Position numbers and translations under genes: made by a program
Source of the DNA: Henricia sp. BOLD:AAB3569
Taxonomy: Eukaryota; Echinodermata; Asteroidea; Spinulosida; Echinasteridae
Reading direction: 5' to 3'
NCBI GenBank assembly: GCA_037783545.1
Contig: JBBELK010000058.1
Span: forward strand, 1,302,001 to 1,366,000
DNA: 64,000 nucleotides
Notes under the pieces: generated by a model
Told to the model about the DNA's origin: nothing
Database searches by the model: none
The model's input: only the letters and a program-made list of their open reading frames with translations
Shown: positions 1,241 through 63,835 of the stretch, one piece after another
Position numbering within the stretch: position 1 is the first letter of the stretch
Layout of the letters: each line of letters opens with the position of its first letter

Positions 1241-1720
1241 ACCTTAAGCCTAGCGTACATCGACCTCGCAACTGGAAGCAACTTAACTGATCAGTTGCTG
1301 TCAATGTGTGCGTAGCGCGCTCATCGACAGCAACTGATCAGTTGCGCAACTAGCGGCAACTGGGAGCATTCAGCCATGTCTACATTTCCAGAGCACGCAC
1401 ATTGACACGGCAACTCAGTAAAGCCTATCGTACGTCAACATTACTGCTGTTGATGTGTGCCCACGTGATCAGATGCACTCGTGCAACTGACAGCAACTAG
1501 TTGCAAGTACGCGTACACCGACAAAACTGACCGCAACTGGGTACAACTAGTTGCCAGAAAGTAGAACATGAGCAACTCGCGGCAACTGGGATTTTCCCAG
1601 TTGCCAGTAGTTCCAAGTGCGCGTTCATCAACCTTTTTAAGCAACTGATCAGTTGCTCCCAGTTGCCGCGAGTTGCTTCTAGTTACCGGAAACATCAGTT
1701 GCAAGGTCAATGTTTGTTGA
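1241..1720. mobile_element. CAACTG-word element, copy 1 (rearranged)
   Basis: The left terminus AAGCCTAGCGTACATCGACC is followed by many CAACTG/CAGTTG words in both orientations, including GCAACTGATCAGTTGC. The right end decays to AATGTTTGTTGAGCTTAA. A second internal terminus near 1418 (AAAGCCTATCGTAC) suggests two overlapping or tandem copies. Compare 3931-4250 and 51578-51921. Confidence 0.75.
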
Positions 1721-1912
1721 GCTTAAATTCTCATAAACGCTTTCTAATCATACAATGGCAAAAGGGCCTGCATGCTGGCACTCGGTTACCTATTCGCAAA
1801 TGAAAAATTCAACTGACGCCCAATTGCGGCACTGCTTTATGGAACGGATAAATTAGTTTACAAAACAGTGGTTTTTTTTACGAAATCTTGAAAATATATG
1901 GATTGACAGCGT

Positions 1913-1972
1913 GAAATTTCAGAATGGTAATGAGAAAAATAGTACAAATGATATGGTATTAAAATCTCAAAT
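1913..1972 (+). repeat. Dispersed repeat fragment, inverted partner at 48493-48546
   Basis: The segment beginning AAATTTCAGAATGGTAATG and continuing to ATATGGTATTAAAAT is matched on the opposite strand near 48493-48546 with few differences. It is a short piece of an otherwise unrecognised interspersed repeat. Confidence 0.5.
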
Positions 1973-3243
1973 CCATGGGGAAAATGGAAGAGGGGAGTCA
2001 AAAATGCGATCTAGACACGGTCGTTTAAGATGAACAATCATGTCCAACGTAAAAAAAAATGCATTTGTGTCTTGATCGTCGGGACTAGCCACACAACCAT
2101 GTCTCATGAGGGCGCTGTAACAGAAGCGTAAATCGGCAGTCGTTTCCAAGAAAACGTAATAGCTGCTTCCATCGCAAATTTTGATTAAGTGCTACATTTT
2201 CATTCTTTGTTTGTTTCAGTTTAGCTTCAACGAAATACTTGCCCCTGTCTAGTGCCCTCAGGCGAGAGATGGTCGTGTGACACTTCACTTTTTTCCCTGT
2301 GCCCCTTCCTTTATACCATGCATCATGATCTCATATTTTAATTTTTCACTGCAGTTCACGTACTCATTCATCATGTTTGTTTTGTAACAAGCATGCTTTC
2401 GTTTTCATTTTGCATAAGTCATGCTTCATAACTGAACCCTTGATTCTTTCTTAAGGAAAAATGTGGGTTTTTTTGTGGAAATTAAAAAGTATGTCTTAGC
2501 ATTGGCAATATTTGTAGTGTTTGTCTATTCCCTTTTTCGGCTTTGATTAAAAAAAAAAACTTTATATTGACATAAAAAATACCATAAAATTGGTGTTAAA
2601 AATTCACAACCCTTTAACTTTCAATTTTTATTTTTCCCTTGAATGTTTTTTTAAATATTATTCTGGTTTATTATTAAAAAAATATTGCATACCAACAGCA
2701 TAAATGCTCACATAGTTACAATACAAATGCGATAAAATTTGTATTTGTATGGCTTTGAAGAATGCCATACAAATACTGTAATCACTGTGAGAGGTTTTAA
2801 ACTGAAAACGGCTGTGTACATGTTTTGTTTTTGTCTGCTCTTGTAAATGTTACATGTGGTTACTGTTTTACTTTGTTGGTTGCTTTGCTTTAACTAAATG
2901 CTGTATCTTCTTTTTCGTTTTTGTAAAAAAAAAACATTCATGATAATGTTACCGCGGTAATCGCATTTCAATGGAAATAGACCTTGCTTAAAAGTGTCAT
3001 TTCACTGCACATTCGTGTGCCATTTGTGATGTTAATACATGCCTTTACGGTTCCCCCACAATTTGCTGCGTGCATTGCATGATGGGACGGAATTCTAGTA
3101 CACCGCAGAGGAGCGTTAAGTTTAACCGTGTACTGTAGACGAATGGAATATCGCAGGACAGTGGAGCTTTTGGCTGCTTCAAACTCACAAAACGTGGTGA
3201 TTTTGTGTCTTTGATACAATTGTTACAGATTCAACCTACTGTA
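1973..3243. other. AT-rich non-coding DNA, nothing recognised
   Basis: This lies in the last intron of the Ras-GAP gene. It has homopolymer runs (A and T tracts near 2540-2660 and 2925) and a short GTTACCGCGGTAA palindrome near 2947. I see no exon-like reading frame or terminal inverted repeat. Confidence 0.4.
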
Positions 3244-3389
3244 TAGACTGTATCCACTAGCTGCCATCTTGTAGGGCAACTTTCGACATTTAAATTGGTC
3301 AACAATGTTAGCACAAAATGTGCAACCATGCATGTCCTCACGGAACCAAAAAACTGCCCTACAAGATGGCAGCTATTCGATACGGTCTG
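3244..3389. mobile_element. Foldback element family F2 (TAGACCGTATCGA), copy 1
   Basis: Terminal inverted repeats TAGACTGTATCC and CGATACGGTCT enclose arms carrying the GCCATCTTGTAGGGCA word and its complement. The loop contains GTGCAACCATGCATGTCCT, shared with the copy at 22334-22490. It is a non-autonomous DNA element of about 146 bp. Confidence 0.8.
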
Positions 3390-3930
3390 TATCCGTTTTG
3401 AAATACTGACTTGATTGTCACAAACACGGTGTGCCCAGTAGTCGCGGTGCGCCAGTTGCCAGCGCCCCCGAGTGCGTGCAGTCTTGATCAGTTCAGCCAG
3501 CGCGCGCAGCGTGCATACCCCATCCAAAAGTAAAAAATTAATTTCTCCAAAATCTAAATGTGATGTGATGTTTAGTGATTTTGTTGTTGTCCATGCATGT
3601 TCAAATGTCCGTCTGTGTTTGTGGCTTGGTTTCAGAATGTCGCATCTTCAGCAAAGAATACACTCCGTATAGGATTTGGTGGAAGCTGGTGTGGTGGGCT
3701 GACCAATAAGACACTGTTAGTCATTTTAGTTTAAACCATTTGTTGAATTTTATTTTGTATTTCTCTGTATTTTGTTTGTTGAGGTTTAATGAACTAGTAC
3801 ATAAGGCTGGATTTAGTCAAGCGATCTAACATGTAATGTTAACAAAAATATTTTAGGTGTCCAGTACGTTACACCTGGATGTCTTTAAAAAAAGAAAATT
3901 CACTGTACATCTAAATAATCACACCCCTAA

Positions 3931-4250
3931 AGCCTAGCGTACATCGACCTGGAAGCAACTCAACTGATCAGTTGCTGTCAATGTGTGCCCATGTAATCAC
4001 ACGCACTAGCATCGTGCAATTGACAGCAACTAGTTGCAAGTACTCGTACATCGCCGCAACTGGGTACAACTAGTTGCCAGAAAGTAGAACATGAGCAACT
4101 CGCGGCAACTGGAATTTTTCCAGTTGCAAGTGCGCATACATTTTCAAGCAACTGATCAGTTGCTCCCAGTTGCCGCGAGTTGCTTCTAGTTGCCGGAAAC
4201 ATCAGTTGCCACAAGTTGCTTCCAGTTGCAAGGTCGATGTACGCTAGGCT
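3931..4250. mobile_element. CAACTG-word element, copy 2 (cleanest copy)
   Basis: It starts AGCCTAGCGTACATCGACCT and ends with the complement ...CGATGTACGCTAGGCT. It is flanked by TAA on both sides (a candidate 3-bp target duplication). The 320-bp body is saturated with CAACTG/CAGTTG words such as GCAACTGATCAGTTGCT. It has no coding capacity. Confidence 0.85.
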
Positions 4251-4502
4251 TAAAATCATCTGTAACCCCACATACTTTTGCCATAGAGTACTAAATTTAA
4301 TGGAATAACTGGTTGTAGGTCTGTTAATAATACGGTATTAAAACCAACCTGAACCAACATGATTTTCTCAGCTTTATTCCTTCAAAACGGGACTGAAAAT
4401 GGTACTGATGGTAGGCAGATGGTTTGACTGGATTTTGACAATAACGTAAACTAACAAATTCCTCTGACATAATATTTCGGACTGCGTTAATCAGGGGAGG
4501 AT

Positions 4503-4517
4503 CGGGGGGGGGGGGGG
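4503..4517. repeat. Poly-G tract
   Basis: An almost pure G run inside a C/G-rich stretch (4497-4555). It is simple sequence with possible length error in assembly. Confidence 0.7.
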
Positions 4518-4631
4518 TGTGGGTGGGGTGCATGACTCCCCACCCTCCCCCTTTTCTAAAAAAAAAAGATAACTATCTATTTATTTTTTTAATTACCGAT
4601 AACTTTCGCAACCCTGTTAATTCCAGTTTGG

Positions 4632-4907
4632 AGAATTGGTGGTCTAGTGAATAGCATGTCGGACTTTCGGTCGAGAGGTCCATGGTTCGAAACCTGGCCA
4701 TTGCACTGCAATGTGTCCTTGGACAAGACACTTCACTCCACGTTGTCTCTCTCCACCCAGGTGTATAAATGGGTACCAGCAAATACGGTTGGGGAAACCC
4801 AACTAGTTGCTGGGGGTAGACCTGCGATGGACTGGCATCACATCCAGGAGGAGTACATATGAGCCAATTAATATTGGCTCATAAACGACTTGCCTACCTA
4901 CCTAATT
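4632..4907 (+). mobile_element. tRNA-derived SINE with GATGGACTGGCATC body
   Basis: The head contains an A-box-like TGGTCTAGTGAATAGC and a B-box-like GGTTCGAAACC about 45 bp later. The body has the widespread invertebrate SINE motifs TGGACAAGACACTTCACTCC and GCGATGGACTGGCATC. The tail is ACCTACCTA. It lies in the last Ras-GAP intron. Confidence 0.75.
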
Positions 4908-5068
4908 CCAGTTTGAGGAAAACTGTCGCCCCACTGGTGTTTAATTCTTAGGCAGTAACTTAAGTGCTAAAGTGATACTAACAAATATGAAAACAAGTAA
5001 TTAGTAATCCCAAGTAATATTTTAATCCCATGTTACCGTGCAACCATTTTCTTGTTCATCTTAAACAG

Positions 5069-5858: not shown

Positions 5859-6171
5859 TGTATTCGAAGATATGTACAACTCGAGAAGATGGTCAGATTG
5901 GACCTAAAACTGAAGAGGTTAAATTGTGTGCAAAGGCAGTTTTAATTATTTTAATTTACTGTGCATTTCAAATGCTTTATAAAATGTAATGCTGTTGATT
6001 TGAGTACAGATATTCTTCACAGTTTTAAACATGGGTTTGAGTCTGTCTTGTTAATATTTCACAACTTTATTTTACTGAAATTTTGCATTTAAAAGAAACA
6101 ATCTGTTGAATTCAGGGTCTATAAAGTCCATCACAAGTCCTCCAGTCTTAAGGCAATAACAATGTGCAAAT
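5859..6171. other. Intergenic AT-rich DNA, nothing recognised
   Basis: No open frame of interest, TIR or tandem repeat is seen between the candidate poly(A) site and the SINE at 6172. Confidence 0.4.
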
Positions 6172-6484: not shown

Positions 6485-6595
6485 TTAATTAGCTTAAAAA
6501 GACATTTTTGTGCATTTTGGTTTGTTACTGGGTGCTGATGGGCTCAAAAATTAGTCCTTAGTGGGCTAAATTGTGATCAACTTAACGCTGAACAG

Positions 6596-7128
6596 TCATC
6601 CAGTAGCCATGTTGGTGCACCCAATATGCCCATGTTGGTGCACCTAGTGCCCATATCCCCTTCGATCACATGTGTACATTTGTTGAAAGTCACTTCATGT
6701 GACTGAAGGGAATATTGGTGTGCCCAGCGCCCATGTCGGTGCACCACTAGCGCCCATGTCGTTGCACCACTAGCGCCCATGTCGGTGCACCACTATAGCG
6801 CCCATGTCGGTGCACCACTAGCGCCCATGTCAGTGCTCCACTAGCGCCCATGTCAGTGCTCCACTAGCGTCCATGTCGGTGCACCACTATAGCGCCCATG
6901 TCGGTGCACCACTAGCGCCCATGTCGGTGCACCGCTAGCGCCCATATTGGCGTGCCCAGCGCCCATGTCGGTGCACCACTAGCGCCCATGTCGGTGCACC
7001 ACTAGCGCTCATGTCGGTGCACCACTATAGCGCCCATGTCGGTGCACCACTATAGCGCCCATGTCGGTGCACCACTAGTGCCCATGTCCGTGCACCGCTA
7101 GCGCCCATGTCGGTGTGCCCAGCGCCCA
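6596..7128. repeat. Minisatellite, about 18 units of 23-25 bp
   Basis: The core unit GCGCCCATGTCGGTGCACC plus ACTA or ACTATA is repeated about 18 times from 6725 to 7128. Degenerate outliers start at 6596. Units vary by a TA insertion and single substitutions, and a GTGCCCAGC variant block recurs three times, suggesting a higher-order pattern. It is intergenic. Confidence 0.95.
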
Positions 7129-7552
7129 TTTCTATATCTTGCTGTACATTTTTTGTTAGATTCATAAAAATAACCTTTGGGTGTTACCCCTTTCATTCTT
7201 AAAAAGTAGTGTACAAATAACATAGCCTATACTGCTGTCAGTTTTTACAAAGTTGATATCACTGTAAATAATTTTAAGCCAAATATTTGTATTTATTTAT
7301 TGGAACAGACATCGCATTATTTGAAGTCTTCCACGAGTGGGCGACTTTTCTAATTTTGCTACATTCATGTTCTCACTTTCCTTAAAATCTGGGAAGTATA
7401 GGAACATTATTTATTGGATTGCCAAGAGTTTGTGCACTGGCAAAGAAAACAATAATTCGTTTACTGCACCGCCTCCACCCCCCTGATAAAAAGACAGATT
7501 TTACCTAAAAGTTGATAGTCCAAGTTGTGTGAAGTAGTACACCAGAGGTATA
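7129..7552. other. Intergenic DNA, nothing recognised
   Basis: AT-rich sequence without TIRs, tandem repeats or plausible exons. A C-rich tract lies near 7470. Confidence 0.4.
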
Positions 7553-33737: not shown

Positions 33738-35198
33738 AGATAGTATACATGATTGGTAATACCGGATTGGCGGTGCCACTACGGTTTTTGGTCAAAACCG
33801 CCATCAACGTAGTGACACCGCCAGTAGTTTTTCATAGTTTTCCCCTACCCGTCACACATGTGTTTTTCTTCGCGGTGCTACTGCGGAACCAGGGCGGAAT
33901 CACGGCGGAACCATGGCGGTGTCACTGCGGACACGGCAAACCAATTGAGTTACCACTGCGGTTTGATGGCGGTGCCACGGCGATCATTGGCGGCAGGACT
34001 GCGGTGTTGGCGGCAGCACTGCGGGGCCAGTGAAGTGCCACTGCGGGGCTGGCGGTGCTACTACGGTGCTACTGCGGTGGCGCTGCGACAGCAGGGAGGT
34101 TCCATGACGTCAAAATGACTACAAAATATGCCTGCAGTAGCACCGTGCAAGCACCTCAGTGCAACCTCAGTGGAAACGCCATTGCCGTACAAGCACCTCA
34201 ATAACACCGCCGGCACCGCCGTAGGAACGCAGTGGCACCGCAGTAAGATCGCCAAATTTTCTAAAATTCATCCCTGGCTCCGCAGTGGCACCCCCATACC
34301 CGCAGTGCTCCCGTGGTAGCACCGTGGTAGCACCGCCATAACCGCAGTAGAACCGCCACGGGATCGCCAGTCTACTTTTTCGGCGATTGCACGGCGGTTG
34401 TACTGCGGAGGCACGGCGGTGATGGAGGTGCTACTGCGGTCCTTGTACGGTCCCACGGCGGTCATGGCGGTGCCGCGGCGATCCCACTGCGGAATGGCCC
34501 AACCCGCGTTGGCACTGCGGAAGTTTTGAACTTGTTCAAAGTTTCCGCCGTGCCACCGCGAAGGTCCGCGGTTTTGACAGTTTTCCGCGGTGCTACGGCG
34601 ATCAATGGCGGAACCACTGCGGAACCACTGCGGAACCACGGCGATCATGGCGGTGCCACTGCGGTTTATGCCGTACAAGCACCGCAGTGGCACCGCGCCT
34701 CCGGTGTGACGGGGGTATAAACTGTTACAAATAGTTTTATCCCCGTGTGATTGAAAATATGCATGATTAGACTTCGTCTAACTTTTGAGAAAACAGTCAA
34801 AAAAAGGTTTGCAGTCATTTCGCCCCAAAACCACTTCGCCCTGAACCATTTCGCCCTGATCCATTTCGCCCTGAACCACGGCCTGTGCGCGAAGTGGTTT
34901 TGGGGCGAAGTAGCATTTGGGCGATGTAGTATTTGGACGAAGTGATTTGGGGCGAAATGGCACTCGGACGAAGTGGTTTGGGGGCCAAATGGCACTTGGG
35001 CGAAATGGTTTTGGGGCGAATTGAATTTTAGTCTCATGAGACGAAAACTAATTGTTTTACTCATTTCTCAAAGACTATAGCACTTTAGACAAAACCATTT
35101 CGGGGGAAGTTTTCAACGATCATCATGTTTATATTGTGTAAGTTAGGCGCAAATCTGTGAACATTTCTGATTTTCGAGATACAATCATGTATACTGCT
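33738..35198. mobile_element. TTAA element family T2, copy interrupted near its left end
   Basis: The left terminus AGATAGTATACATGATTGGTAA (33738-33759) resumes after the insertion with ACTGTTACAAATAG at 34720. It continues as in 19712-20103 with GCGAAGTGG-type words, and ends CATGTATACTGC-TTTAAA (TTAA at 35199-35202). The left TTAA is not preserved. Confidence 0.85.
33759..34718. mobile_element. GC-rich word-saturated insertion (GGCGGTGCCACTGCGG)
   Basis: The whole 960 bp is built from variants of GCGGTGCCACTGCGG and its complement. Three large blocks alternate: forward 33766-34090, reverse 34127-34352, forward 34385-34660, then a short reverse end. The ends (ATACCGGATTGGCGGTGCCA; reverse TATACCCCCGTCACACCGG) look like imperfect TIRs. 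GC is far above the surroundings. It is not coding. Confidence 0.85.
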
Positions 35199-36441: not shown

Positions 36442-36533
36442 TTAAAAAAATGCAAAAGAAATCTATACATTTTGTCATTTATTTCAGACTTTGGAGGCGA
36501 CATGCGAATCGTACTAGTACCGGGTAGTACATT

Positions 36534-37372
36534 GGGTGAGGTCACAATTCTGTGTGTGTTACGTGTTAGTGTTAGTGTTACAGATCTGTTAACAGATCTG
36601 TTATCTCAATCAGAATTGTGACCTCGTAACAAATGCCGTGTTAACACGGCGTGTTACTGTTAGTGTGTGTTGAAAATCGTGCGCAGAACCGCAAATTGCA
36701 GTGAGTTAGGGTGCAATTCTGTGCTCCGTATTAGTGTAACAGATCTGTTAACACGGCGTCTCGGGAAATGTCAAGTCGGTATTGGGTTCTGCACAACTTT
36801 CAACACTAACACTAACACAGAATTGTGACCTCCGGTCCGTGTTACACGAGCTTAACCACTAGTGATTGAAATTTTCAAAATCTTCACAGAGCCCCAAAAA
36901 AGTTTCAACACATTTATAAGTTGTGTTGAAAAATGAAACTCAATTTATTGAGAATCACGAAAGTTCCGAGTTAATCAAAATTAATACCACCCACTTCGTT
37001 CCGATTAACTTAACAGATCTGTTAACAGATCTGTCACACTAACACGATGTGTAACATGAAGTGTTCAACTAACATGAGATGTAACACTAACACGTCTTAA
37101 ACATAATGTTAACATCGAGTTAACACGGTGTTTGTTCTCAAATCTGATTAAGTTAACAGATCTGTTGCACTAACACTATCACGCAACGCAGAGTTGTGAC
37201 TTCGCCCTATGTACAGTGTACAGAAGTAACATGGTGTTAACACCCCGTTAACAGATAGACACGGTGTTAACCTGGACGTTAAGTTAGAGGCCGAAATTGA
37301 TGCCGTGTTAACAGATCTGTTAACAGATCTGTAACACTAACACGTAACACACACAGAATTGTGACCTCACCC
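36534..37372. mobile_element. Word-saturated TIR element (GGGTGAGGTCACAATTCTG; TTAACAGATCTG)
   Basis: TIRs of about 60 bp begin GGGTGAGGTCACAATTCTGT and continue through GTTAGTGTTACAGATCTG. The body of 839 bp repeats TTAACAGATCTGTTAACA, GTGTTAACACGG and ACACTAACAC in both orientations. ATT flanks each end (3-bp duplication candidate). Confidence 0.9.
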
Positions 37373-37440
37373 ATTGTATATAGCACAGTACTGAACCATA
37401 CCAGTGCTTACCAATGCTGAGGTATTACATGTACATGGCC

Positions 37441-38410: not shown

Positions 38411-38415
38411 CTATA

Positions 38416-38834
38416 CCCTTTTCCCACTACAAACTGCTTAACCCAGAGATTTGCCTCTCCGGGTTAAGCTTTAATTCTTACCCCGGGGTTCGTTAACCCC
38501 GAGTTATGTTCCCATTTGTTTCCTAAGCCCGGAGTTTCCCTAAACCCAGGGCGAGCTTGCGCCGGGTTTTCCACTAGGCGCGGGCATATCTGTATACAGA
38601 GACTGGAGAAACGGAAATCTGCAAACATCTTATTCCAATCTTATTCCCGAGATTGCCATCATTAACCCTGGTCGCTGGCAGGGTTAACGAACCCCGGAGT
38701 AAAGGCCGAATGTTTTGTCTTAACCCGGGGCGGAAAAAGAGTAGTGGGAACGCTCGCGCTGCCCCTGGGTATCTCGGGGTTAAGGATTGCTGTTACCCCC
38801 GAGTTAACCCAGAGATTTTGTAGTGGGAAAGGGG
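38416..38834. mobile_element. Word-saturated TIR element (CCCTTTTCCCACTAC; GTTAACCC)
   Basis: CCCTTTTCCCACTACAAA and TTTGTAGTGGGAAAGGGG are inverted and flanked by TA. The second-layer word AACCCAGAGATTT is also present in both arms. Inside, GGGGTTAAG, GTTAACCCCGA and CCCGGGGTT words alternate. Length is 419 bp. Confidence 0.88.
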
Positions 38835-38838
38835 TACA

Positions 38839-39618
38839 ATTCGTCGCGTTTTTCTCATACTGACGAACATGGCCAAACATGCCAAACTGCAGTTTCGAGT
38901 AATTCACGTTTTTAGTTGAACTTATTTTGGTTCTTTTAATTCACCGTTTTTGAAAATAAAATCCCACTTTTGGGTTTAATAACCTTCTTGCTTAATGTCT
39001 AAACTTTAATTAATTACGTATTTTCCATTTATTTGATTTGAGCAGTTATAAAGCTGTGAACGTGTTCGTCGGTATGAGAAAAAACAAAATTTGATGCGCG
39101 TGCTGTTCGCCACCCGTAACGCTATACACTTTCGGGTTCGTCACTATGAGAAAAACTCAAAACGTTGTTCGCCACCTCCATATGTTTACTTCATCGGGGC
39201 TGCGGACGAGACTCATATTTATACTGATGAACACTTAGGTAATTAAGTACCATATCCACAAACTAACATTTTGTAAAATTCCATATATTTATTGATTTAT
39301 TGATTTTTCTTACGTCAAAACAGCGTTCAGCTTCGCGCGATTTTGGTTGGTACCCGGTACCAGCGCGCTGTGTTGTAATACGCAGAAGCAGTGATCGGTC
39401 ACCAACTAAGAATCCATGTTCGTCAGTATGGGAACAACTTTTTAAGCGAAATGGGGTTGTTCGTCATTTTCAGATGTTTCATAACTCAAAAACCAGACAA
39501 TATCTTGGTTTGAAATGTTCAGAAATGAAAGGGGGCACCCCAAAAATCGCAAATATGTCAAAAAACGAAATTTGTCAAAAAGTGCCTGTCCGTCAGTATG
39601 GGAAAATTGCGACGAATT
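38839..39618. mobile_element. Word-saturated TIR element (AATTCGTCGCGTTTTTC; TCATACTGACGAAC)
   Basis: AATTCGTCGCGTTTTTCTCA and its complement (GGAAAATTGCGACGAATT) form the ends, four bases after the previous element. TTCTCATACTGACGAACA or its complement recurs near 38852, 39067, 39135, 39222, 39420 and 39590. Length is 780 bp with no coding capacity. Confidence 0.82.
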
Positions 39619-42009: not shown

Positions 42010-42014
42010 CGTTA

Positions 42015-42782
42015 GGCCTTTTCCCACTAGAACGTCAAACCCTGGGGCGAACTCGCCCCAGGGCCACTCCGGGGTGACGCGCGATTTTTCACCCCTGAGT
42101 TCAACCCTGCGTCTTTTCACACTTGTCTTTCTCAAACCACACATTTCGCCCCGGGGCGAGTTCGCTCCGGGGATCAGTACTCGCATTTCCCACTTGAGCA
42201 AGTCAAACCTCGGGGTGAGCGCCTATCATGTAGAATTTCTCATCATTCTCTCCAGTTAGTTGCTTTTTCATTTCGTCGTCCTCCCGAATTTCCCCATCCC
42301 CTATGATTTGCCTTTCAGATGACTTCTTTTTTTTGCGATATTATAGCTGACATATTTTGATATAGTGATATTTGTACTGGGCAATGGAACTCCAAAGACT
42401 TGAAATATCAGAATCGGACGTGTTGTAAACGTTATGCCAGCATATGTACTGTAACATGAAAGATGCGCGTTCATGTTGCGCTTTTGTTATTGTCTTTACA
42501 CAAATCGAACTTAGCGCGCATTCAAGTGACCTTCGCCATTGCTCGCCCCGGGGCGAACTCACCCCCGCGCCGTTTCACACTACCGTTCTCGCCCCAGGGA
42601 ATGTGTCTTACCCCGGGGCAAAAATTTTCAACCCTGGTCCCGAGCAGGGTTGAACTCGCCCTGGGGAAAGAGCAATCTCGGGGGTGGCGCAGGGGTGAGA
42701 AATTCAAGTGGGAAACGAGGCTTATTTTCACTCCCGCGACGCCCCGGGCCACCCCCGAGATTTGGACTAGTGGGAAAAGGCC
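42015..42782. mobile_element. Word-saturated TIR element (GGCCTTTTCCCACTAG; CCCCGGGGCGAACTCG)
   Basis: GGCCTTTTCCCACTAG is inverted at the right end (CTAGTGGGAAAAGGCC). Words CCCCGGGGCGAACTC, CTGGGGCGAACTCGCCCC, GGTTGAACTCG and CCCCGAG fill both flanks around a less repetitive AT-rich core (42230-42520). Length is 768 bp. It is adjacent to the element ending at 42009. Confidence 0.88.
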
Positions 42783-43512
42783 TTCTAGAGGATGGTTTAT
42801 AATTGGCCAGCTACATTCATTTTAGCTCAGCATTGGCCACACGAGGCAAAATATTTTTGTCTAACGGCTTCGACGAGCAAAAAATGCAGTAAAAGTGCTG
42901 AGCCAAATGGCCACGAATGACCGTTTGCTCAGCAAAATACCTCATGTGTGCAGCAGACTTCATGACATGAAGAAACCCAGAATACCTTCATGGATGACTA
43001 GACTGAGCACCAGTGGTTAATGTATAGCTTTGTACCAGATTACGAATAGGTTCATCAGCTGAAAAGCGATGAAGAGGATAAAAAGACAAGAAATCATACA
43101 AAAAATACCTTTATTCAAACATAAACTTTCATGTTTCCAATGAGAACACTAAGTAAAGAATTAAAAAATTGCTTGTCTTTTACCTATTGATGAATGTATT
43201 TTAAATCTGGTACAACTACAAAGCTATTTCTGACATGGTCGCTCTGAACCATCAGTGCTCAGTCATCCATGAAGGTATTCTGGATTTCTTGATGTCATAA
43301 GATAGAGAACACGGTGATGAAATGGATGGAAGTTGCCTTTTCCCAAATTCCTCAGTAATTACCAATTTAATATCGGTTTCCTTTTCTAGGACACCCTGTC
43401 TAACCTAGATTGTTGGCAAGAAAACATGGATAAAGAAAACTTAATTTTATTTAAGACGCATCCAAGTATGGGCAATCCCCACTGAGGTGTCATGCCATTT
43501 CCATAGAACAGC
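42783..43512. other. Intergenic DNA with a small inverted repeat
   Basis: GAAACCCAGAATACCTTCATGGATGACT at about 42971 has an inverted partner near 43261-43290, and TTAATGTATAGCTTTGTACCAGAT near 43020 has an imperfect partner near 43206, so another foldback about 330 bp long (42960-43300) is likely. Nothing else is seen. Confidence 0.5.
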
Positions 43513-46223: not shown

Positions 46224-46812
46224 GGCAAATTTTGCGTACAATAGTATTTTGTCTTCAGTACAAACAGACAAGATCACAGTTGAAGGTGCTGCACACAACA
46301 TCGGCAAAAACTGTTAAATGCCAATACTCCCAATAGAAACATGCTTTAACATTTGCTGAAGGTTTGGGTTTGCAAAATCATCTTCTGAGATTTTTGACAT
46401 CTGGGAAAACAGGTTCATTACGTGACTCCAAACACATCTAAAAATCCCCAAGGTTGTTAATTGACAATCCAGGAGGGTTTTTATCCATGTCAAGACTCGC
46501 AAAATCTAGGAGGGTTGGCATCTCTGCACTTGAAATGTTATAGGTGGATACAGAGCAAGCATTTTTATTTGCTGCATTTACACAATGTCTCGATTTGGAT
46601 TCAGTTCGCCGTTACAACCACAAAGGTCACTGCTAATTGTGCACGCAGCATGTGTATCTAGACTTTTTTGCATTGTGGAACTGGCACTGGATTTATCAGT
46701 TGAATCTACTACACAGCACTCACTGCACAAGCTCCACCCCAAGGACGCTCAAATTGCCGAATCTGTATTTGGGTAGCATTTACACTACAAGCAACCTTGA
46801 TAATTCGTCGCT

Positions 46813-47247: not shown

Positions 47248-47572
47248 CCCATCTTCCTGTCGCAAGGCCGTTGCTCCCACACCGAGTTGTCTGCAACGAT
47301 CCTTGCTGAATTGAGTTGAGCTAGGCTGTATTCATGATTCAAAATTGCATCATAGCTAGGGACGCTGTAACCATAGCAAGAGCCAATTACGGTAATTCAC
47401 ACGCGCCTCACTCCGTGTAGTGGTAGCGTCAATTTTTAGGGTCAAAAGTGTTCAGTATCTCTCATTGGTCGAACAGCCCAGGGGTCTAATACAGACTAGT
47501 TCAACTCGTTTCAGCAAGGCTCATTGTCGACAACTCGTTGTGGGAGCAACGGCCTTACGACAGGAAGATGGG
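47248..47572. mobile_element. Foldback (CCCATCTTCCTGTCG) with about 85-bp arms
   Basis: CCCATCTTCCTGTCGCAAGG, CCGTTGCTCCCACA, GAGTTGTC and CCTTGCTGAA are mirrored at 47480-47572. The flanks TTTAA and TTCAA are a possible 4-5 bp target duplication inside the host GGGTTYAACCC. Length is 325 bp. Confidence 0.88.
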
Positions 47573-47786
47573 TTCAACCCTCCCCTCGAGGTGAATTGAA
47601 AAAAGGTGGATCAGATCCAAGTCTGATCCCCCTTTTTAAAATCCGTGGTGCACAATGCACAAGCTCTGCCCCATACATTGTAGGCGCTCAAATTGACAAA
47701 TTTGTCACCTACTCGGCTTCAACTCGCCTTTTTGGAAAATGCGGTGTTCGATTAGTCAAAGCTGGGTAAATTGAGTGTAAACAGCA

Positions 47787-51167: not shown

Positions 51168-51577
51168 ACTGTTTTCCCAACGTGTTTTTGTATTAAAGGG
51201 CCTGTGACATCCTAAACAACTTTTTGCCTAATCTTTGCTTCATATGATGGATCACTTGTTCAGCAAGACATACTATTGTTTGTTTGGATGTAAAATCAAT
51301 AAAAGGTGGCATTTTTCATCTTTGAAGATTTCATTGCAATAAATCAGAGACAGAGGGCGCTGTTTTGAGTGCAGAGTACAGTTTATATAATGATAATGGT
51401 GACATCTATATAGTGTATCTTGGTCGCAGCCGGGAATCGAACCCACGACCGTGGAATTAGACATGATCTTGAGTTCAATGCACCAAACCGCTTGGCCATT
51501 ATGGTACATGTAAATGCTAGCGGCAACTGGGAACATCCAGATTTCAGAGCGCGCACATCGACATGGCAACTAGGTAA

Positions 51578-51921
51578 AGCCTACAGTACATTGACCTTTC
51601 AACTGGAAGCAACTGTTGCATGCAGTTGCTGTCGATTTGCGTGCACGTATTCAGACACACGCGTGCAACTGACAGCAACTACGCGTACATCGACGCAACT
51701 GACCGCAAGTGGGTACAACTAGTTGCCAGAAAGTAGAACATGAGCAACTCGCGGCAACTCCAGTTGCCAGTAGTTAATTGCCAGTAGTTGCAAGTATGTG
51801 CACATCGACCTTTTATGAGCAACTGATCAGTTGCTCCCAGTTGCCGCTAGTTGCTTCCAGTTGCCGGAAACACCAGTTGCCACTAGTTGCTTCCAGTTGC
51901 AATGTCGATGTACGCTAGGCT
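51578..51921. mobile_element. CAACTG-word element, copy 3
   Basis: AGCCTACAGTACATTGACC at the left and the inverted ...CGATGTACGCTAGGCT at the right enclose CAACTG/CAGTTG words. A partial further unit lies immediately to the left (51516-51577). Confidence 0.82.
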
Positions 51922-52198
51922 TTATAAGTGAGCGGAAAGCCAGCTTAAGTGGTTGATACATGGATTGTTTTGGTGCTCTTGTTTTGTGCAGTTGCTAATG
52001 AAACCCCTGTACCCCAAAGGGTTAATTAGCGCCCCAAATTACAGCTTAAGTGTCCGACATGCTAATTAGATTGATTACAGAACTTATAGTACAGTTTTTT
52101 AATTATACCTTGTTTAAACTTACCCCGTACCATGTTTCAACTTACCCCATAGGTGGGGTAAGTCGGAACAGCTGACATGGTCATGTTCAAAGTGGATT

Positions 52199-53534: not shown

Positions 53535-54022
53535 CACCGCGTTTACACTCGAATGGGCAAAGGTGGATACAGATCCAGCATTTTTATTGCGACCACAAAA
53601 CTGAACATTTGCCGCGTTTACACTACATGTACACCCCAAATCGCTTCAACCGCAAAAGTCACCACTAAATGTAACTGCAGCGCATGCGTGAGCTGTTAGG
53701 TGTTGCTGCACTAGTGCCAGGTTGGTCAATTAAATGTACTACACTGCAGGCACCGCCCCAAGGACACTCAAATTGCCGAATCTGTATTCGGGTAGCGTTT
53801 ACACTACAAGCGACCTTGACGATTGCAGGGTTCAACCCTGCAATTGCGGGGTTCAACCCTACCCCAAAGGTGACTTGAAAAAGGCGAATCAGACCCGGGT
53901 CTGATCCGCCTTTTTCAATTCACCTTTTGCGTTTACACTTGGTGCCTACCCGGCTTCAACTCCCCTTTTTGGAAATTGCGGAGTTCGATTCGGCAAAGGC
54001 GAATCGAGTGTAAACGGGGTGA
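53535..54022. mobile_element. GTTTACACT-family TIR element, uninterrupted copy
   Basis: CACCGCGTTTACACTCGAAT is inverted at the right end (GAATCGAGTGTAAACGGGG). Inside, GTTTACACT and GGGTTCAACCCTGCAAT words recur. It provides the reference for the interrupted copy at 46540-47786. Confidence 0.85.
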
Positions 54023-56476: not shown

Positions 56477-57166
56477 GCCTTTTCACACTACAACCTCTCA
56501 ACTCGGGTTGAACTCTCGGAGTTCCCCCGGGTTGAAATACAAATTTTTTCAATCCCGTATTAACCCCGCCCCAGCGGGGCGAGTTCAACCCCAAGTTGAA
56601 TGGGGAGGATTCACACTTGTGCAACCCCAACCTGGGGCAAGTATAATCGAGCGTTACTCGCATGCATAAGTGCTGTCCCCTGCCGGAAATAGTTCAAATT
56701 TTCAGAATTCATTATCGCTTTTCTATCCTGTTTTTCTTTTTTGCTGTATGTGCCATTTTTTTTTAATGAGAAAAGTGCAAAAGTGAATGACGGATGATGT
56801 AAAAATAGCCTCTCAAAACAGAAGCTCTGATTTTCACACATACAACATGCTTGTTCATGTGTACACCGCAGTTAACCAACATGTACCTGAACACATTCAT
56901 TCAGCTGGTAGTATTCATGCAAATTTTTTTTTTAAACGTAAAATTTGCGTGCTTTGGCGTGACATTTGTAGCTCACAAGCAGCAAGAATCTCAACCCAGG
57001 GCGAACTAAACCCTGCTCGTTTCACAATACCGTTTTCAACCCAGGGCGAGCGTTCAACCCGGGTTGAAACCAATCTCGGGGTTGGTTGGCGCGGGGTTGA
57101 AAGTGTGAAACATCGCTTTTTTCAACCCTGCGCCGACCTTGAGATTTTTCAAGTGTGAAAAGGCCT
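56477..57166. mobile_element. Word-saturated TIR element (AGCCTTTTCACACTAC; GGGTTGAA)
   Basis: AGCCTTTTCACACTAC and AAGTGTGAAAAGGCCT form the ends. Words TCAACCCGGGTTGAA, CAACCCAGGGCGA and CCCCGGGTTG occupy both flanks around an AT-rich core. The architecture matches 42015-42782 with different words. Length is about 690 bp. Confidence 0.85.
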
Positions 57167-58790
57167 AAAGGAATGCACTATAATTCAAATGTTCGGAGTA
57201 ATAAGTGATGTTTGCTTTATCAGAATGTTAGTTTTTTGTGTATTTTTTATATAAATGTTCCACTATATTTAGTAACACAAATATAAACCAGCTTCATTTC
57301 TTTATTGTATAGTTTGTAGTGTGTAACATCTGATACCATTTCCATCAGGCTCTTTCACACTAGACAAAATCTTGGGGATGTGGGGGTGGGGGGTTGGGTG
57401 ATTCTGTGTCCATAAATAGCTGCATAATTTTCATGTTTTCATAATATGCAAAATGTTCAAAATGCAGCAGCTGGTCCTGTACATGTATGTGCTTTTACTG
57501 CCTTTATCACCCAATCTGAACATTCTGCGTTTGTGTGTTTCACCTGCTTGAATGTATTTTTAGACCAGTTCAATATGACACTTCAAACAACATGAAATGT
57601 TTAGATAAGGTGAGTGAAATAGTGGCTATGCTTGTAATTATGCTCAGTTTGGATTTAGCAACATGGGTAATGGGCAATTGACCAATCCAGTAGGCTCCGC
57701 TCATTTAGAAATTGCCTAGCAACATGCCACACATGTAAGGCACGTGTGCAGTAGAGTTGCGTGGCTGTGCCGTGCGTCAGCATCCGCGCCCTGGTCAGCG
57801 CGTATTGAAACACGCACACCCACACAGAAACTGCACGCTCGAAAGCAAAATGTGCACTTAAGTATCAAGTCGCGTGCGTGCACGTACAACACGCCTGCAT
57901 TACGCGTAACGCGCACGATCGAACAAAAACATCTCGACACACATCTAGAACGCAGTGAATGCACAACATAGCAAAACGACAAGCTAATTTTGGTGAGTTT
58001 TTCCTGTTTACACAAAAACACATTTATGAAGGGATTAAAAGTAGGTTTGGATAGTCTTATACAATCTGTTTTAAACCGGCTAGGGTCCTCTGCGCTGATA
58101 AAAATGATGTTTATGGTGTTTTTGCGTCACTCGTGCTGCATTTCACCGTAGCTCTGTGCACACAATTTTGAGGACTCAGGTAGCCAAAATGGCGATCTAC
58201 TTTTTGGCTACCTGAACCTGAGGCTGTGATTGGTCAATTCAAAAATGGGCATTTCACAATACGCGCACTCGCATGGGAAAAAAGTCGACACGAGCATTGC
58301 TAAACATGTGATAAAGTATATTACCATACCTCATACATATTCGCATTTTTACTGGTCCATTCTCCGTCACGTGCCAGTAGTTATTTTTGCTGTTTATCTG
58401 CGCACATGCCAAAAGTGCTAGCGTAGTAGACTACTCGGGGCTGCCAGGGAAATAGTACACTGCGCACGCGCCTTGCGAAGCATTCTTTCTCGGCAGCCCG
58501 GGAATAATACACTACGCATGCGCTTTACGAAACAACCGGGCGTAGCGTGTATAGCACGCAGTACGCACGACAGCACCGCGCGGGTATAACACGCATGCAC
58601 GCACACGAGCTGAATGAAAAGATGGCTGCACAAGCAAAACTTTACTCACCGTTTTCCTGCGGTCAGTGATTTTAAATTGGGGAAGAATATGTACATGGTT
58701 CATTTCGGCCTCCGGATCTACATTGTAGTGTGTCAACTCCCAATACCTCGGGGAGCTAATATCGACTATCCACCCACAAACCATGTGATA
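57167..58790. other. Intergenic DNA with a CpG-rich block
   Basis: 57700-57960 and 58430-58620 are rich in CpG and ACGCGT/GCGCATGCGC-type sites, unlike the neighbourhood. ACTACGCATGCGCTTTACG resembles NRF-1-like motifs. A hairpin CTCAGGTAGCCAAAA/TTTTTGGCTACCTGA lies at about 58165-58205. There is no supported exon; an unannotated promoter is possible. Confidence 0.45.
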
Positions 58791-60037
58791 ATATACAAAT
58801 ATTGACTGCAATGAGGGGCATGGTTAAGATTATAGGCCCAAGGTGATCTCGAAGCCATGACTATGCCCCGAGGCGGAAGCCGAGGGGCATAGTCATGGCT
58901 TCGAGATCACCTAGGGCCTATAACCTTAACCATGACCCGAATAAACAGCAGTCAATATTTGTTGTATATACCGAATGTGTAGATTTTTGTCATCTGGTTG
59001 GGTAAAAGTAACGATACATCATACAGTCATGACAGTGGTCCTTCGAGTTTCGATTTCGGAAGCTGGTCTACGGCGGAAAAGTTGTATATTTACAGCAAAC
59101 ATTTGTAGCATAATCACCTGGCACTTTAGTAGCACATTTCACCTGACACAGTTTTCACTGTAGGCCACTTCTCTTACTTTCTTAATGACTTCATCATCTA
59201 CGACAGACGTTGAGATTCCGCCATTACCGTCCTGCTGAATGTTTACGTGAAGCGCCCAGCTGCATAGTTGGTGCACAGCTATGCTAACACATGTAATGCG
59301 CGCGTCCGGAACCCGCTAAATGACTATGCCCGGGGCATAGTCATTTAGCGGGTTCCGGACGCGCGCACAACATGTGTTAGCATAGCTGTGCACCAACTAT
59401 GCAGCTGGGCACTTCACGTAAACATTCAGCAGGACGGTAATGGCGGAATCTCGATGAAGTCGTTTTGTCGTCTGTCGTAGATGGTGAAGTCCTTTAGAAA
59501 ATAAGAGAAGTGGTCTACAGTGAAAACTGTGTCGGGTGAAATGTGCTACTCAAGTGCCAGGTGATTATGCTAGAACTTGTTGCTGTAAATATACAACTTT
59601 TCCGCCATAGACCAGCTTCCGAAATCGAAACTCGAAGGACCACTGTCATGACTGTGACTGTGTATCGTTACTTTTAACCAACCAGATGACAAAAATCTAC
59701 ACGTTCGGTATATACAACAAATATTGACTGCTGTTTATTCGGGTCATGGTTAAGATTATAGGCCCTTGGTGATCTAGAAGCCATGACTATGCCCCTCGGC
59801 TTCCGCCTCGGGGCACAGTCATGGCTTCGCGATAACCTTGGGCCTATAATCTTATCCTGTGGGGTGTTATGGCCGAGCGGTCTAGTGTGTCGAACTTAAG
59901 TTCCTGTGCTAGTACTAGAATGTAGGTTCGATTCCTGGCCGTGACGGGTTGTGGCACCTGTGCCCTTCAGCAAGGCACTCAACCACACTTGCTCCCATTC
60001 CTGTAATTGGCAGTCCCTCCGCTGTTGGATGTGGTAT

Positions 60038-60069
<32 letters not shown>

Positions 60070-60101
60070 ACCATGCCCCTCATTGCAGTCAATATTTGTA
60101 T
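58791..60101. mobile_element. Giant palindromic element with nested hairpins and a SINE insertion
   Basis: ATACAAATATTGACTGCAAT at 58795 is mirrored at 60082-60101. The axis is at about 59331 (CTAAATGACTATGCCC|GGGCATAGTCATTTAG). Each arm of about 540 bp contains its own hairpin (CATGACTATGCCCCGAGGCG and complement) at 58855-58890 and 59783-59825. The arms are roughly 95% alike by eye. The right arm is interrupted by the SINE at 59858-60058. Confidence 0.9.
59858..60058 (+). mobile_element. tRNA-Leu-like SINE (family S2), short form
   Basis: The GGTGTTATGGCCGAGCGGTC head and GGTTCGATTCCTGGCC B box are followed by TGACGGGTTGTGGCACCTG, GCAAGGCACTCAACCACAC, CCATTCCTGTAATTGGCAGT and an AAATAAATAAAT tail. 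It lacks the CCTTCGGAAGG central domain of 37441-37800. Confidence 0.9.
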
Positions 60102-60785
60102 ATTATTATGCCATCTATTCTCGAGAAAAGAGCACTAATTGAACTTTTTTTTCTTCGCAAACATTATTAATTTTCATTAGGTAAGGAATTATTGCGTCGG
60201 TCCAAATGATAAGGGAAAGTAATTTATGCCCATCAGGACGCGGTATGCACTATATGCTAAGTGCGTTTCCCAAGGAAACGCACTTGTTTAAATCATTTTG
60301 TTTAAATAATCTGCATGTAGGCTTCCAAAATAAACTGCAACCTCTAAATCAGGTATTTGTTTTCAAACCAAATCTGAATTGTTTGTGCAATAAACGAATA
60401 CACCGATGTCGACCGCTCTGTCATAAAAATGCCATCTCCGACAGAAATGCTTGGTGGCGCTCTTGAGTAATGAATTCATGCAGCAATTAATCGTGAGTAG
60501 TTGTCGAAACACAAAAAGGGGAGAAAAAATTAATTACACATGTTTGTGTACTGTCTTTTTATCAGGGCCTATAGGCGTAGTAACATTGTATCCTGGAAAT
60601 TTGCTTTTTTTTAATCTGCTGCATTTCTGTTTCACAATATACATTTTTATTAGTGGATTTCAACAAAGATTATTTTGTGTTTTTGTCATAAAAACTGCCA
60701 TGACTTTCTTGGAGTTTGGTAATGAAAATCGGCGGTTTTTCTCTGTGAATACGATGGCGCAGGTCCGCCATTTTTTATTTCAATA
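60102..60785. other. Intergenic DNA with a small hairpin
   Basis: AAGTGCGTTTCC/GGAAACGCACTT near 60258-60286 forms a short hairpin. Nothing else is recognised. Confidence 0.4.
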
Positions 60786-61347
60786 CAAATGTGGACAAAT
60801 GTCCATATGAGTTTGGGAAATCTGGATGCAGTGAAAAGTAACTTGGCTCCACCGGGATTCGAACCGCGGACCTTCTGCTTAACGTGCAGACGCCCTACCA
60901 ATTGAGCTATGAAGCCAACTGTTGTCTCGAATCACGGTAGTGCAGTTGTTCCTCACTGATTGGGATTGGCTGTCACGTGAGCTTAGCAAGCCCTACAGAG
61001 AAATAACCACCCCTCCCAGAGATCAATTAAGATACCCCTGCCCAGCTTGCCCCAATTATTAAGTATGAATAAGTGATTATTTTAGGGTTTGGATATTAAT
61101 TAATCTCTGGGAGGGGTGGTTATTTCTCTGTAGGGCCTGCTAAGCTCACGTGATAGACAATCCCAAATCAGCGAGGAACAACTGCACTACTGTGATTCGA
61201 GACCACCAGTTGGCTTCATAGCTCAATTGGTAGGGCATCTGTACATTAAGCAGAAGGTCCGCGGTTCGAATCCCAGTGGAGCCAAGTTGCTTTTCACTGC
61301 ATCCAGATTTCCCAAACCCATATCGACATTTGTCCAAATTTGTATCA
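60786..61347. mobile_element. Foldback with a tRNA-like sequence in each arm (family S3)
   Basis: The arms 60786-61030 (minus) and 61098-61347 (plus) each hold GGCTTCATAGCTCAATTGGTAG (A box) and GCGGTTCGAATCCC (B box), a GCAGAAGGTCC segment, and the tail TTTTCACTGCATCCAGATTTC. The tRNA acceptor stems pair, but the T stems have two mismatches and the anticodon loop lacks U33, so these are not working tRNA genes. The inner arms CTCTGGGAGGGGTGGTTATT extend beyond the tRNA part. Confidence 0.85.
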
Positions 61348-62009
61348 TATTTTATTTTAGTGCATAAATCCAATCGAACAGTACGATGAAATAACGGTTG
61401 CTCGTTGTGACTTTTGGGAGCTTACAGATTCCCTAAATAAACTTGTTGGTCGTACAGAAAGTAGTATTTTCTAAGACCTCCCATCCCGCCAAACCCGCCC
61501 CCCTCCAACCCCCCCCCCCCCCCCCACGTTATCAACATAAGCAGTACCATGAAACGTTAATACATCTCATGTTAAGTCGTACGTGGCCTTCGACCCTCCT
61601 CCCTTTGTAAGCTTCGTACGACCCTGAAAATGTTGACAATTTTGGACGATCCCCAAGATGTAGAACATTTTTCACAACTCCCTTACCCCTGTCAGGAGAA
61701 CCCTGGCTATAATAATAATAATAAAAATTTATAATGCGCCGGTATCCATCAAAAAAGATGCTCATGCTATGCCACTAATCAAAGTAAATATTAGGTAGTA
61801 ACCAATACAAGCATAGGTCAAACGCTCATGCATGTCTGCTCTCTGTCTAATGGTGTATCAGGAGTATAAAATATGACTATCACGATACACAAAAGACGTA
61901 ATTGAATTGCCACAAAACCAGTAATGGATTGTAAAATTGAGTGCTTTTAAAGAGCTGGCGTGGCCTAAGGACATAGTCCAACACACTGGCTGTGCCGGAG
62001 TAGCCTTGG
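61348..62009. repeat. Intergenic DNA with poly-C tract and SINE-tail remnant
   Basis: 61509-61526 is a C run. 61708-61760 carries (ATA)n followed by TTTATAATGCGCCGGTATCC, a sequence typical of SINE/LINE 3' tails. No gene is seen. Confidence 0.5.
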
Positions 62010-62936
62010 ATTTTAAATCCAATCGTAGCAGCTTCAGTTTCTTTTGATGTGCCCCTTGCGTGTAGCGCAATGCAAGCTGGAGACACACTCCAAATTTTCC
62101 GTGATTCACAGCAACTCCAGCTGGAGTGTAAGACCCGATTTACATTAGGGTAATCACTTCGTTCGACGAACATTCGACGAACATTCGACGAACATTCGAC
62201 GAAGAGATTTCCTGATGTGAATGCACACCTCCTCATTCGACGAAGATTAGAATTGCTTCATTCGATGAAGCAAACAGCTTCATTCGATGAGGCAAACAGC
62301 TTCATTCGATGAAGCAAACAGCTTCATTTGATGAAGAGATCGCTTCATTCGATGAAGCAAAATTGTAATGTGAACGCTCCCTTCGCTTGACCAAGCAATT
62401 TGACGTGTATCGAGATGGGGTGTCGCATAGCTAATTTATTTGATCTTCGTTAGTGGTTGTCTAATGTGAACGGTACCGCTCTTCATTCCATCTTCGTTCA
62501 ATCTTCATTGAGTGAGATGTGAATGCACTCTTTATCATTAACTAATGATGATTAATTAATCTTCGTTGAACGAAGCTATTCTCCCTAATGAGAATGGGGT
62601 CCAGGTTGTTTTCTGAGTGTGTAGTTCAATGCAGACTGGGCACACTTTCCAAAATTATCCTGATGGAGGATGAGTTACTCCACAGTTGGCTGTAGTTCGA
62701 TACCGTAACCCTTGCTCTCTGAGGGTAGGCCTAGTCCAATGCAGGCCAGCCACACACTCCGAAATCCTCCAGCAGTCGTGTATGGGATGATGCAGTTACT
62801 CCACAGTGGACTGTAGTACCTTAACCCTTGCTCTCTGAGGGTAGTTCAATGCAGGCCAGCCACACACTCCAAAATCCACCAGCTGGAGTGTATTGGAGGA
62901 TGCAGTTACTCCACAGTGGACTGTAGTACATGTACC
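62010..62936. repeat. Tandem repeat of about 125 bp interrupted by a word-saturated element
   Basis: CAATGCAGGCCAGCCACACACTCC, GATGCAGTTACTCCACAGTGG and ACCCTTGCTCTCTGAGGGTA recur three times between 62615 and 62936. Degraded units lie at 62040-62130. The array is split by 62131-62593. Confidence 0.85.
62131..62593. mobile_element. Word-saturated TIR element (GACCCGATTTACATTAGGG; TTCGATGAAGC)
   Basis: GACCCGATTTACATTAGGG at the left and CCCTAATGAGAATGGGGTC at the right are imperfect TIRs. CGACGAACATTCGACGAA, CTTCATTCGATGAAGC and CTTCGTTGAACGAAG words fill both sides. Length is 463 bp. It sits within the tandem array. Confidence 0.82.
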
Positions 62937-62998
62937 TTAACGAAATACGCAGCTCCATAGCAAAGGCATGGAGCTGCGTATTTCGGGGCACAAATTTG
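62937..62998. mobile_element. T1 foldback core fragment
   Basis: AACGAAATACGCAGCTCCAT and ATGGAGCTGCGTATTTCGGG with the loop AGCAAAGGC match the centre of 9638-9774. The outer arms are lost. Confidence 0.8.
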
Positions 62999-63135
62999 TT
63001 TGAAACAGAAGCAGGCGGCACAGATTAGGCAAATTTCCGCTGTACAGTTCATTACTTATACATTTTGTTTTTTCCTCCCCTTTGGATACTTTGCCAACTA
63101 CTCGCGATTAATCAATTACTGGTGCATGCCAATGC

Positions 63136-63835
63136 CTAGACTGGTTCCCTGTCCTCATATTTACTTCCCCTCCGTCGTATATGAGGACAGGTACACGCCG
63201 CCATGTTTGGCATAAATATCCAGGAATTCCTGGATATTTATGCAAATTAAAAGGGCCGTGTCAAATTGCGCAAGCGCCAAGCAGGCGCTCGGAAGAATGG
63301 GTGAACAGCGACGGCAGCGCAGCAGCGGTATTTGAACAACGGCCGCACACCTGGTGATGATGTTTGGCGGCTTAAAAAGACGGCAAACAGCGCCATTTCA
63401 AGTAAAAAGTAATGTATCAGGACAAACCTGGGCGTTGACGAGTACACCACTGCCAAAATTACTAAAGAATTATAAGGGATGGCAGAGATTGAATAGGATA
63501 TGCAAAACCCAGCGACAAAATTAACGATTGCGAAATTCACTCGCCGTTAAGCAAACTTTAAAAATAGATAATGCATATATTTAGGGCGTGTTTGTTTCGG
63601 ACGAATCCGCCGATCCCGATCTGCGCAGATGGTTCAGATAGATCCAAAATGCATAGCGCTGAACCATCTGCGCAGATCGGGGTCGGCGGATTCGTCTGAA
63701 ACAAACACGCCCCTAATACAACGACCAATCACACGTGGTTATACAACGGCCAATCACCCGTGGTTATTGCTCGGCGTGTGCCTGTCCTTGTATAGCGAGA
63801 GCAGCGTAGCGCACATGGACAGGGGACCAGTCTAG
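63136..63835. mobile_element. TIR element (CTAGACTGGTTCCCTGTCC), 700 bp
   Basis: CTAGACTGGTTCCCTGTCC and GGACAGGGGACCAGTCTAG are the ends. Inner small hairpins include CAGGAATTCCTG at 63221. It hosts the hairpin at 63584-63713. The ends resemble internal words of the 29985-32073 composite. Confidence 0.82.
63584..63713. mobile_element. Hairpin element (GGGCGTGTTTGTTTCGGACG)
   Basis: GGGCGTGTTTGTTTCGGACG, AATCCGCCGATC and GATCTGCGCAGATGGTTCAG are mirrored almost perfectly over about 58 bp, with TA on either side. GGSCGTGTTTGTTTC-like ends are known from PIF/Harbinger MITEs, so that assignment is possible. Confidence 0.85.

Follow-up and report, generated by a model that had tools for sequence, protein, structure and literature searches.

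The TU foldback elements of sea urchins carry tandem short units in their arms. PIF/Harbinger transposons have a Myb/SANT gene as partner gene (PMC9710019, PMC9179366); the Myb-like protein of zebrafish Harbinger3_DR recognises a 9-bp subterminal motif (PMC9710019), and the Myb-like proteins of these elements show much greater divergence than their transposases do (PMC9179366). In CACTA elements, the subterminal repeats differ by family and are bound by TNPA, a second element protein that diverges quickly; the motif varies among the families of one species, for which the authors suggest co-evolution (PMC2613891). Galileo has extra THAP-domain binding sites in its repeated terminal inverted repeats (TIRs), two extra in Galileo-G, and its authors propose that multiple sites supply specificity since the site is short (PMC3688188); in the foldback-type Tetris, the repeat unit is about 220 bp (PMC4079207). 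In a 64,000-nucleotide stretch of the asteroid Henricia sp. BOLD:AAB3569 (assembly GCA_037783545.1, contig JBBELK010000058.1, positions 1,302,001 to 1,366,000 of the forward strand; hereafter the window), we describe eleven elements of nine families, A to I, in which a short family-specific word begins just within the TIR and extends inward in both orientations. We consider it probable that these are non-autonomous miniature inverted-repeat transposable elements (MITEs), with the words as predicted subterminal recognition sites of the transposon's own DNA-binding protein. The elements are as follows, a strand being assigned only to the remnant inside F.

1246..1730: first copy of family A, with CAACTG words, TIR AGCCTAGCGTACATCGAC and a right end that looks degraded by eye
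3928..4252: second copy of family A, with CAACTG words and target-site duplication TAA/TAA
33760..34720: family B, CCGCAGTGGCA words; TIR TACCCCCGTCAGACCGG and target-site duplication TWA known from other copies, the window copy having indistinct ends
34815..35024: a further element, J, filled with CACTTCGCCC words
36528..37378: family C, TTAACAGATCTG words, TIR GGTGAGGTCACAATTCTG, 5-bp target-site duplication CATTG on both sides, own end copied internally
38414..38836: family D with TTAACCC half-sites, a short form lacking the centre seen in longer copies
38838..39616: family E, TCATACTGACGAAC words (7 matches), ends in agreement with other copies
42014..42783: family F, whose two outer thirds carry TCGCCCC half-sites and whose middle third has no words
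42206..42340, minus strand: remnant in F reading ..REDDEMKKQLTGENDE.., judged by eye alone to resemble a Myb/SANT-like helix
46804..47226: family G, TGTCAGTTCG words, situated within a K-like element
51575..51925: third copy of family A, with CAACTG words
53535..54021: a further element, K, with five occurrences of CGCGTTTACA, which is a piece of the K TIR
56477..57167: family H, TCAACCC half-sites, a relative of F, target-site duplication AAA/AAA
62131..62605: family I, TTCGATGAAGC words, in part as 22-bp tandem units

The initial annotation of the window had proposed a class of at least ten word-saturated elements, each filled end to end by its own word in both orientations and with bodies that have no sequence in common. 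Eleven elements with nine words were recovered, although these represent fewer independent lineages; the word excess and the presence of both orientations hold in 11/11 elements, whereas uniform filling and unrelated bodies do not. With both strands counted, set mismatches allowed and 200 first-order Markov shuffles as background, every named word exceeded the largest shuffle in its element, the matches against the largest shuffle being 13/4, 10/4 and 12/3 in A copies 1, 2 and 3, 46/11 in B, 10/5 in C, 9/4 in D, 7/1 in E, 14/9 in F, 6/3 in G, 11/4 in H and 19/11 in I. The best 10-mer found de novo (1 mismatch) had 6–18 matches in families A to I, compared with a maximum of 2–5 in 15 shuffles. 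Self-similarity of 8-mers, expressed as z against 200 dinucleotide shuffles (z8), was 36–56 in the A copies, 79 in B, 97 in C, 16 in D, 26 in F, 25 in G, 18 in H and 44 in I, with the lowest value, 6, in E. Words occur in all three thirds of A, B and C, as had been claimed, whereas the middle thirds of F and H have 0 matches in the named-word count and long D copies have a word-free centre that holds a coding remnant. The words of A, B and C are kept in the consensus of 26, 7 and 22 copies, respectively, and are therefore not accidental.

The TIR pairs of the named elements span approximately 16–75 bp and are followed by words in mixed orientation, not by long mirrored arms. Termini begin AGCC.. 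in A, TACCC.. in B and D, GGTGAG.. in C and AGGCC.. in F and H, and the terminal bases AATTCGTCG are common to E and G. We scored as a control set the 39 inverted-repeat pairs of the window, 26 of which lie outside the named elements. Among these 26, z8 ran from -0.8 to 3.6 in 12, from 5 to 9 in 6 and from 14 to 63 in 6, the last group probably owing its scores to long foldback arms; two pairs are the additional word-filled elements J (z8 30) and K (z8 13). Because some pairs outside the named elements score high, z8 alone is insufficient to define the class, and in the same scan the inverted-repeat pairs inside E and G scored low (1.8 in E; -0.6 to 0.7 in G). Word saturation is not general among the inverted-repeat elements of the window. 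Among 780 windows of flanking DNA, 24 had z of at least 20 but were left unused as evidence; among them are stretches of A and C copies as well as simple repeats and tandem arrays.

The genome that holds the window (740.7 Mb in 2104 contigs) was searched for eight of the nine families (all but G), the 40 best candidates per family being scored, and all eight are multi-copy. First-look candidates numbered 2395 for A, 260 for B, 1243 for C, 587 for D, 355 for E, 1577 for F, 671 for H and 2757 for I. The ends of E are fixed because 34 of its 39 other matching loci reach within about 11 bp of both ends. Equal 3-bp flanks were found in 19/30 copies of A, all 19 of them TWA, and in 5/7 copies of B with clear ends (8 examined), again all TWA. 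C does not show TWA but has exactly equal 5-bp duplications in 13/28 clear-ended copies (30 examined), all CANTG. At least two insertion types are therefore represented: A and B are non-autonomous elements of PIF/Harbinger type, and C is a non-autonomous DNA transposon of another insertion type. D, F and H are probably of PIF/Harbinger type, with equal 3-bp flanks in 2/5 copies of D (both TTA), 4/5 copies of F (TAT, TAT, ATA and ATA) and 5/6 copies of H (AAA, TTA, ATA, TAT and TAT). The window copies of E, G and I have no clear target duplication by eye, and we assign these three families to no insertion type. The copy counts include locus pairs that share flanks and are not independent (for example L010/L013, L021/L022, L023/L024, L026/L027, L064/L066 and, within F, L071/L072), and allelic or duplicated contigs are probably present in the assembly. 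At C259:1629713-1641346, four matches to family H form two pairs, with spacings of 3.4 and 3.8 kb, and probably represent a local duplication.

The families D, F and H are related, contrary to the supposed absence of common sequence among the bodies. All three carry the terminus CTTTYCMCACTA, and the right-end regions of F and H can be aligned at 66% over 234 columns, the alignment of F with D being weaker (48% over 233 columns). Their half-sites are nevertheless spelled differently: TTAACCC, TCAACCC and TCGCCCC occur 36, 1 and 2 times in five D copies, 0, 11 and 39 times in five F copies, and 5, 72 and 14 times in six H copies. The TIR motif behaves likewise, TTTCCCACT and TTTCACACT at the termini and inside together numbering 12 and 0 in D, 15 and 9 in F, and 0 and 23 in H. 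The F–H consensus alignment has 443 identical columns of 693, and a symmetric count on it finds 24 positions at which one or both families have a half-site. At 18 aligned sites H has CAACC, where F has CGCCC (5), CACCC (6), CAACC (3) or another sequence (4); the reverse pattern occurs 0 times, all three CAACC sites of F being CAACC in H as well. The other 6 positions have CGCCC in both families (3), CACCC in F and CGCCC in H (1), or a half-site in one family only (2). CpG decay alone is insufficient to account for the F/H spelling, because a C/A transversion is involved. The predominance of a single spelling across many sites of each family, combined with alignable spacers, would implicate a molecule that reads the words.

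The initial annotation had suggested a search for full-length autonomous relatives with the same TIRs; none derived from a window family was found, but a PIF/Harbinger element of like layout was. At three insertions with differing flanks (L077, L081 and L082), one 2104-bp element has target-site duplications TAA/TAA in 3/3 cases, the TIR TGSYACAGTCACACGGCCA and a transposase of 423 aa (DDE_Tnp_4, E=6.2e-31), and it is putatively autonomous. The two non-coding parts of L077 have z8 of 51.5 and 42.4, whereas its gene scores 1.8 and the flanking DNA 1.6. Its filling words TTACGGA, TGCGGAT and TTACGTA occur 0, 1 and 0 times in the gene and not at all in the flanks; TTACGGA by itself has 9 matches in one non-coding part and 6 in the other, and none either in the gene or in 960 bp beyond the element. 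The L077 copy is nested within another element whose outer ends carry GATCCCGAGCTCGGGATC palindromes. The DDE_Tnp_4 family has at least 151 matches in the genome (150 of its 606 candidates being scored), and among the places listed, 22 have one identical score, 18 of these with an open frame of 423–424 aa; L077, L081 and L082 belong to this group. No family copy lies close to a DDE_Tnp_4 place among the matches listed, as compared by eye.

A possible source of the reader is suggested by the remnant inside D. The word-free centre of long D copies reads EKKRTKVWKEEEIKLLIQAWS.., and Myb_DNA-bind_4 is the only Pfam family matched there, in two of four scanned copies (E 0.012 and 0.017). On the basis of this weak remnant, D probably arose by deletion from an element that carried a Myb/SANT gene. 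The 54-aa D remnant has 149 whole or partial genomic matches (150 of its 257 candidates being scored). As a protein query, the F remnant gave 8 matches among 44 candidates, with open frames of 45–103 aa; its likeness to a Myb/SANT-like domain is by eye only. Across the genome there are 49 Myb_DNA-bind_4 matches, 5 of which, counted by eye, have a listed DDE_Tnp_4 match no more than 6 kb away.

Given these observations, we propose a model in which the words are bound by a protein, either the Myb/SANT-like partner or the DNA-binding part of the transposase. An element with more sites would be a better transposition substrate, duplication would supply the words, and selection via the binding protein would retain and re-spell them. 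The high divergence of Myb-like proteins (PMC9179366) would fit family-specific words. Retention was assessed by leave-one-out divergence of word columns and spacers with a permuted-word control. In C, word divergence is 0.104 compared with 0.210 in spacers and 0.175 in the control, and it is lower in 22/22 copies. Divergence thus backs word retention clearly in C only, A and B being barely past the control. Column conservation on the consensus, though strong at first sight, was rejected as support, since it is biased by words having been defined on the same consensus.

Several results weigh against this model. (i) In A and B, the divergence values are near their controls (0.170 vs 0.245, control 0.183, in A; 0.064 vs 0.081, control 0.070, in B). 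(ii) The duplications of D, F and H agree with TWA only partly. (iii) The Myb match in D, present in 2/4 copies, is under the Pfam cut-off (16.5 and 16.0 vs 27 bits), no Pfam family was matched in three F copies or in the F of the window, and L077 has no visible Myb gene across its 2.1 kb. (iv) No autonomous copy with a window family's own word was found, and clear word filling was seen at only one of the ten transposase loci examined, L077, the loci differing in score and frame length. Among the others, L088 has a small one-sided cluster of GTCCACGATC (window z 10) and L080 a small TGACTTGACTTG cluster about 1 kb past its gene, neither amounting to filling; L078, with MADF and transposase genes, is unfilled (z8 -0.1 and 3.0), and L079, L084, L086, L087 and L089 have no convincing array in the stretch fetched. 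The word signal at L085 was rejected as an array of the transposase element, as it belongs to a separate small MITE. (v) Rice mPing and mPong have no specific promoting internal sequence in common (PMC9921582). As an observation apart, the gene at L079, which combines THAP and DDE_Tnp_4 domains, adjoins a YqaJ gene that weakly matches PHD and SWIM, a pair that we take to be ISL2EU-like.

The alternative that fares best, though we regard it as improbable, holds that slippage, template switching or abortive gap repair after excision copies terminal blocks inward, with no selection on words; the initial annotation had similarly suggested that a TIR-proximal word is copied inward. Parts of this hold. 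Recurrences inside the element of 12-mers that stem from the outermost 45 nt, compared with shuffles, number 56 to 1.0 in A, 122 to 3.8 in B, 129 to 8.1 in C, 58 to 2.3 in F and 37 to 1.0 in I, G being weak at 3 to 0.4. Duplication has left traces that such copying would readily produce: the C consensus contains inverted internal copies of 40–60 bp, the window I has 22-bp tandem units, an I locus on contig C329 has five word-block matches about 41 bp apart, and a D-family MITE at L095:601-1188 (C37:1072590-1073177) contains 28 units of 21 bp, 99% matching, with the word CTAACCCGGGG. The longest open frame obtained with the D remnant as protein query, 289 aa on contig C37, was considered as an autonomous gene and rejected, since it spans the 28 tandem word units of a MITE. 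The 28-unit copy may be a recent expansion or a satellite seed. The tandem units and inverted copies indicate that duplication supplies words, a step that the model of a word-reading protein includes. However, no internal repeat reaches 30 bp in the tested copies of D and H, yet D, F and H differ consistently in spelling at aligned sites with alignable spacers, and the arrays of L077 end at the transposase gene. Copying of blocks inward does not predict the D/F/H spelling difference and leaves this re-spelling unexplained, whereas selection by a word-reading protein predicts it.

There is little likelihood that the words serve the host or an RNA, through hairpins and small RNAs or through the binding of chromatin proteins or enhancers, with transposition indifferent to them. 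Perfect palindromes, which would allow foldback, number 3 in A, 10 in C and 2 in F, each above the maximum from 60 shuffles, but 0 in B, J and both L077 arrays, and the single palindrome of H lies inside the shuffle range; palindromic words were accordingly rejected as a general rule, the element surrounding L077 being the one other case above the shuffles. The words are also family-specific and adjoin the TIR, as a transposon-specific factor would predict. Least credible of all, capture of a minisatellite by ordinary MITEs, with the word excess as its by-product, would suit the tandem units in I and one D copy but not the presence of both word orientations in 11/11 elements, words that replicate the element's own subterminal sequence (weakly in G), or the 12/26 other TIR pairs of the window that lack an excess.

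If the words are indeed read by an element protein, it is conceivable, as a more tentative extension that we think somewhat doubtful, that the families have diverged as dialects. A shift in protein specificity would then be followed by re-spelling of all words, terminal and internal, in concert, which would isolate sister families from one another. D, F and H would be three such dialects, the word arrays would act as a recognition barcode, and the 28-unit D copy would represent ongoing expansion. Should this be true, one genome would hold many parallel replicates of the co-evolution of a binding protein and its sites, a question raised for CACTA elements by the authors of PMC2613891; D, F and H would allow us to ask which shifts first, the specificity of the protein or the sites; array size could be considered as a predictor of copy number; and annotation would gain an explanation for the like layout of MITEs with little similarity between their bodies.

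Other features of the region and genome were seen alongside these elements. The flanks of G at 46721-46800 and 47570-47643 resemble K at 89% and 81%, which places G inside a K-like element. A large nested foldback lies at 58788-60106 of the window, its arms being 120–197 bp long and 94–98% complementary, and a tandem array of 17 copies of the 23-bp unit AGCGCCCATGTCGGTGCACCACT lies at 6726-7129. Elsewhere in the genome, L041:2238-2924 is a further word-rich element with CAACCGTAG-like words (11 matches) and the terminus TAAAGCMCCAGTCACACC.

No description of word-saturated Harbinger MITEs turned up in searches of open-licence papers, and each of the closest systems matches the elements described here in some respects only. 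With the PIF/Harbinger elements Harbinger3_DR and rice mPing/Ping, the likeness lies in the combination of DDE_Tnp_4 and TWA in L077 and in the TWA duplications of A and B; the saturating arrays differ, and the accessible portions of the cited accounts make no mention of them for Harbinger3_DR or mPing/Ping. The initial annotation pointed to the sea urchin TU foldbacks as the nearest described parallel. Galileo and Tetris have internal repeats of long TIRs, with added transposase THAP sites in Galileo, but they belong to the P superfamily and, by the authors' suggestion, to Mutator, respectively, and their repeat units are far longer. The CACTA elements En/Spm, Tam1 and soybean Tgmt* share a conserved TIR and a subterminal motif that is specific to the family and is repeated both directly and inverted. 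They belong to another superfamily and kingdom, none of the A, B, C, D or F/H ends has a CACTA terminus, and the CACTA repeats are found at the ends of a large element rather than in all thirds, as in A, B and C; site-by-site re-spelling of the kind seen between F and H has no account in the available part of PMC2613891. Family-specific subterminal words are therefore already known, and the new part is their saturation of the element together with the in-place difference in spelling between related families.

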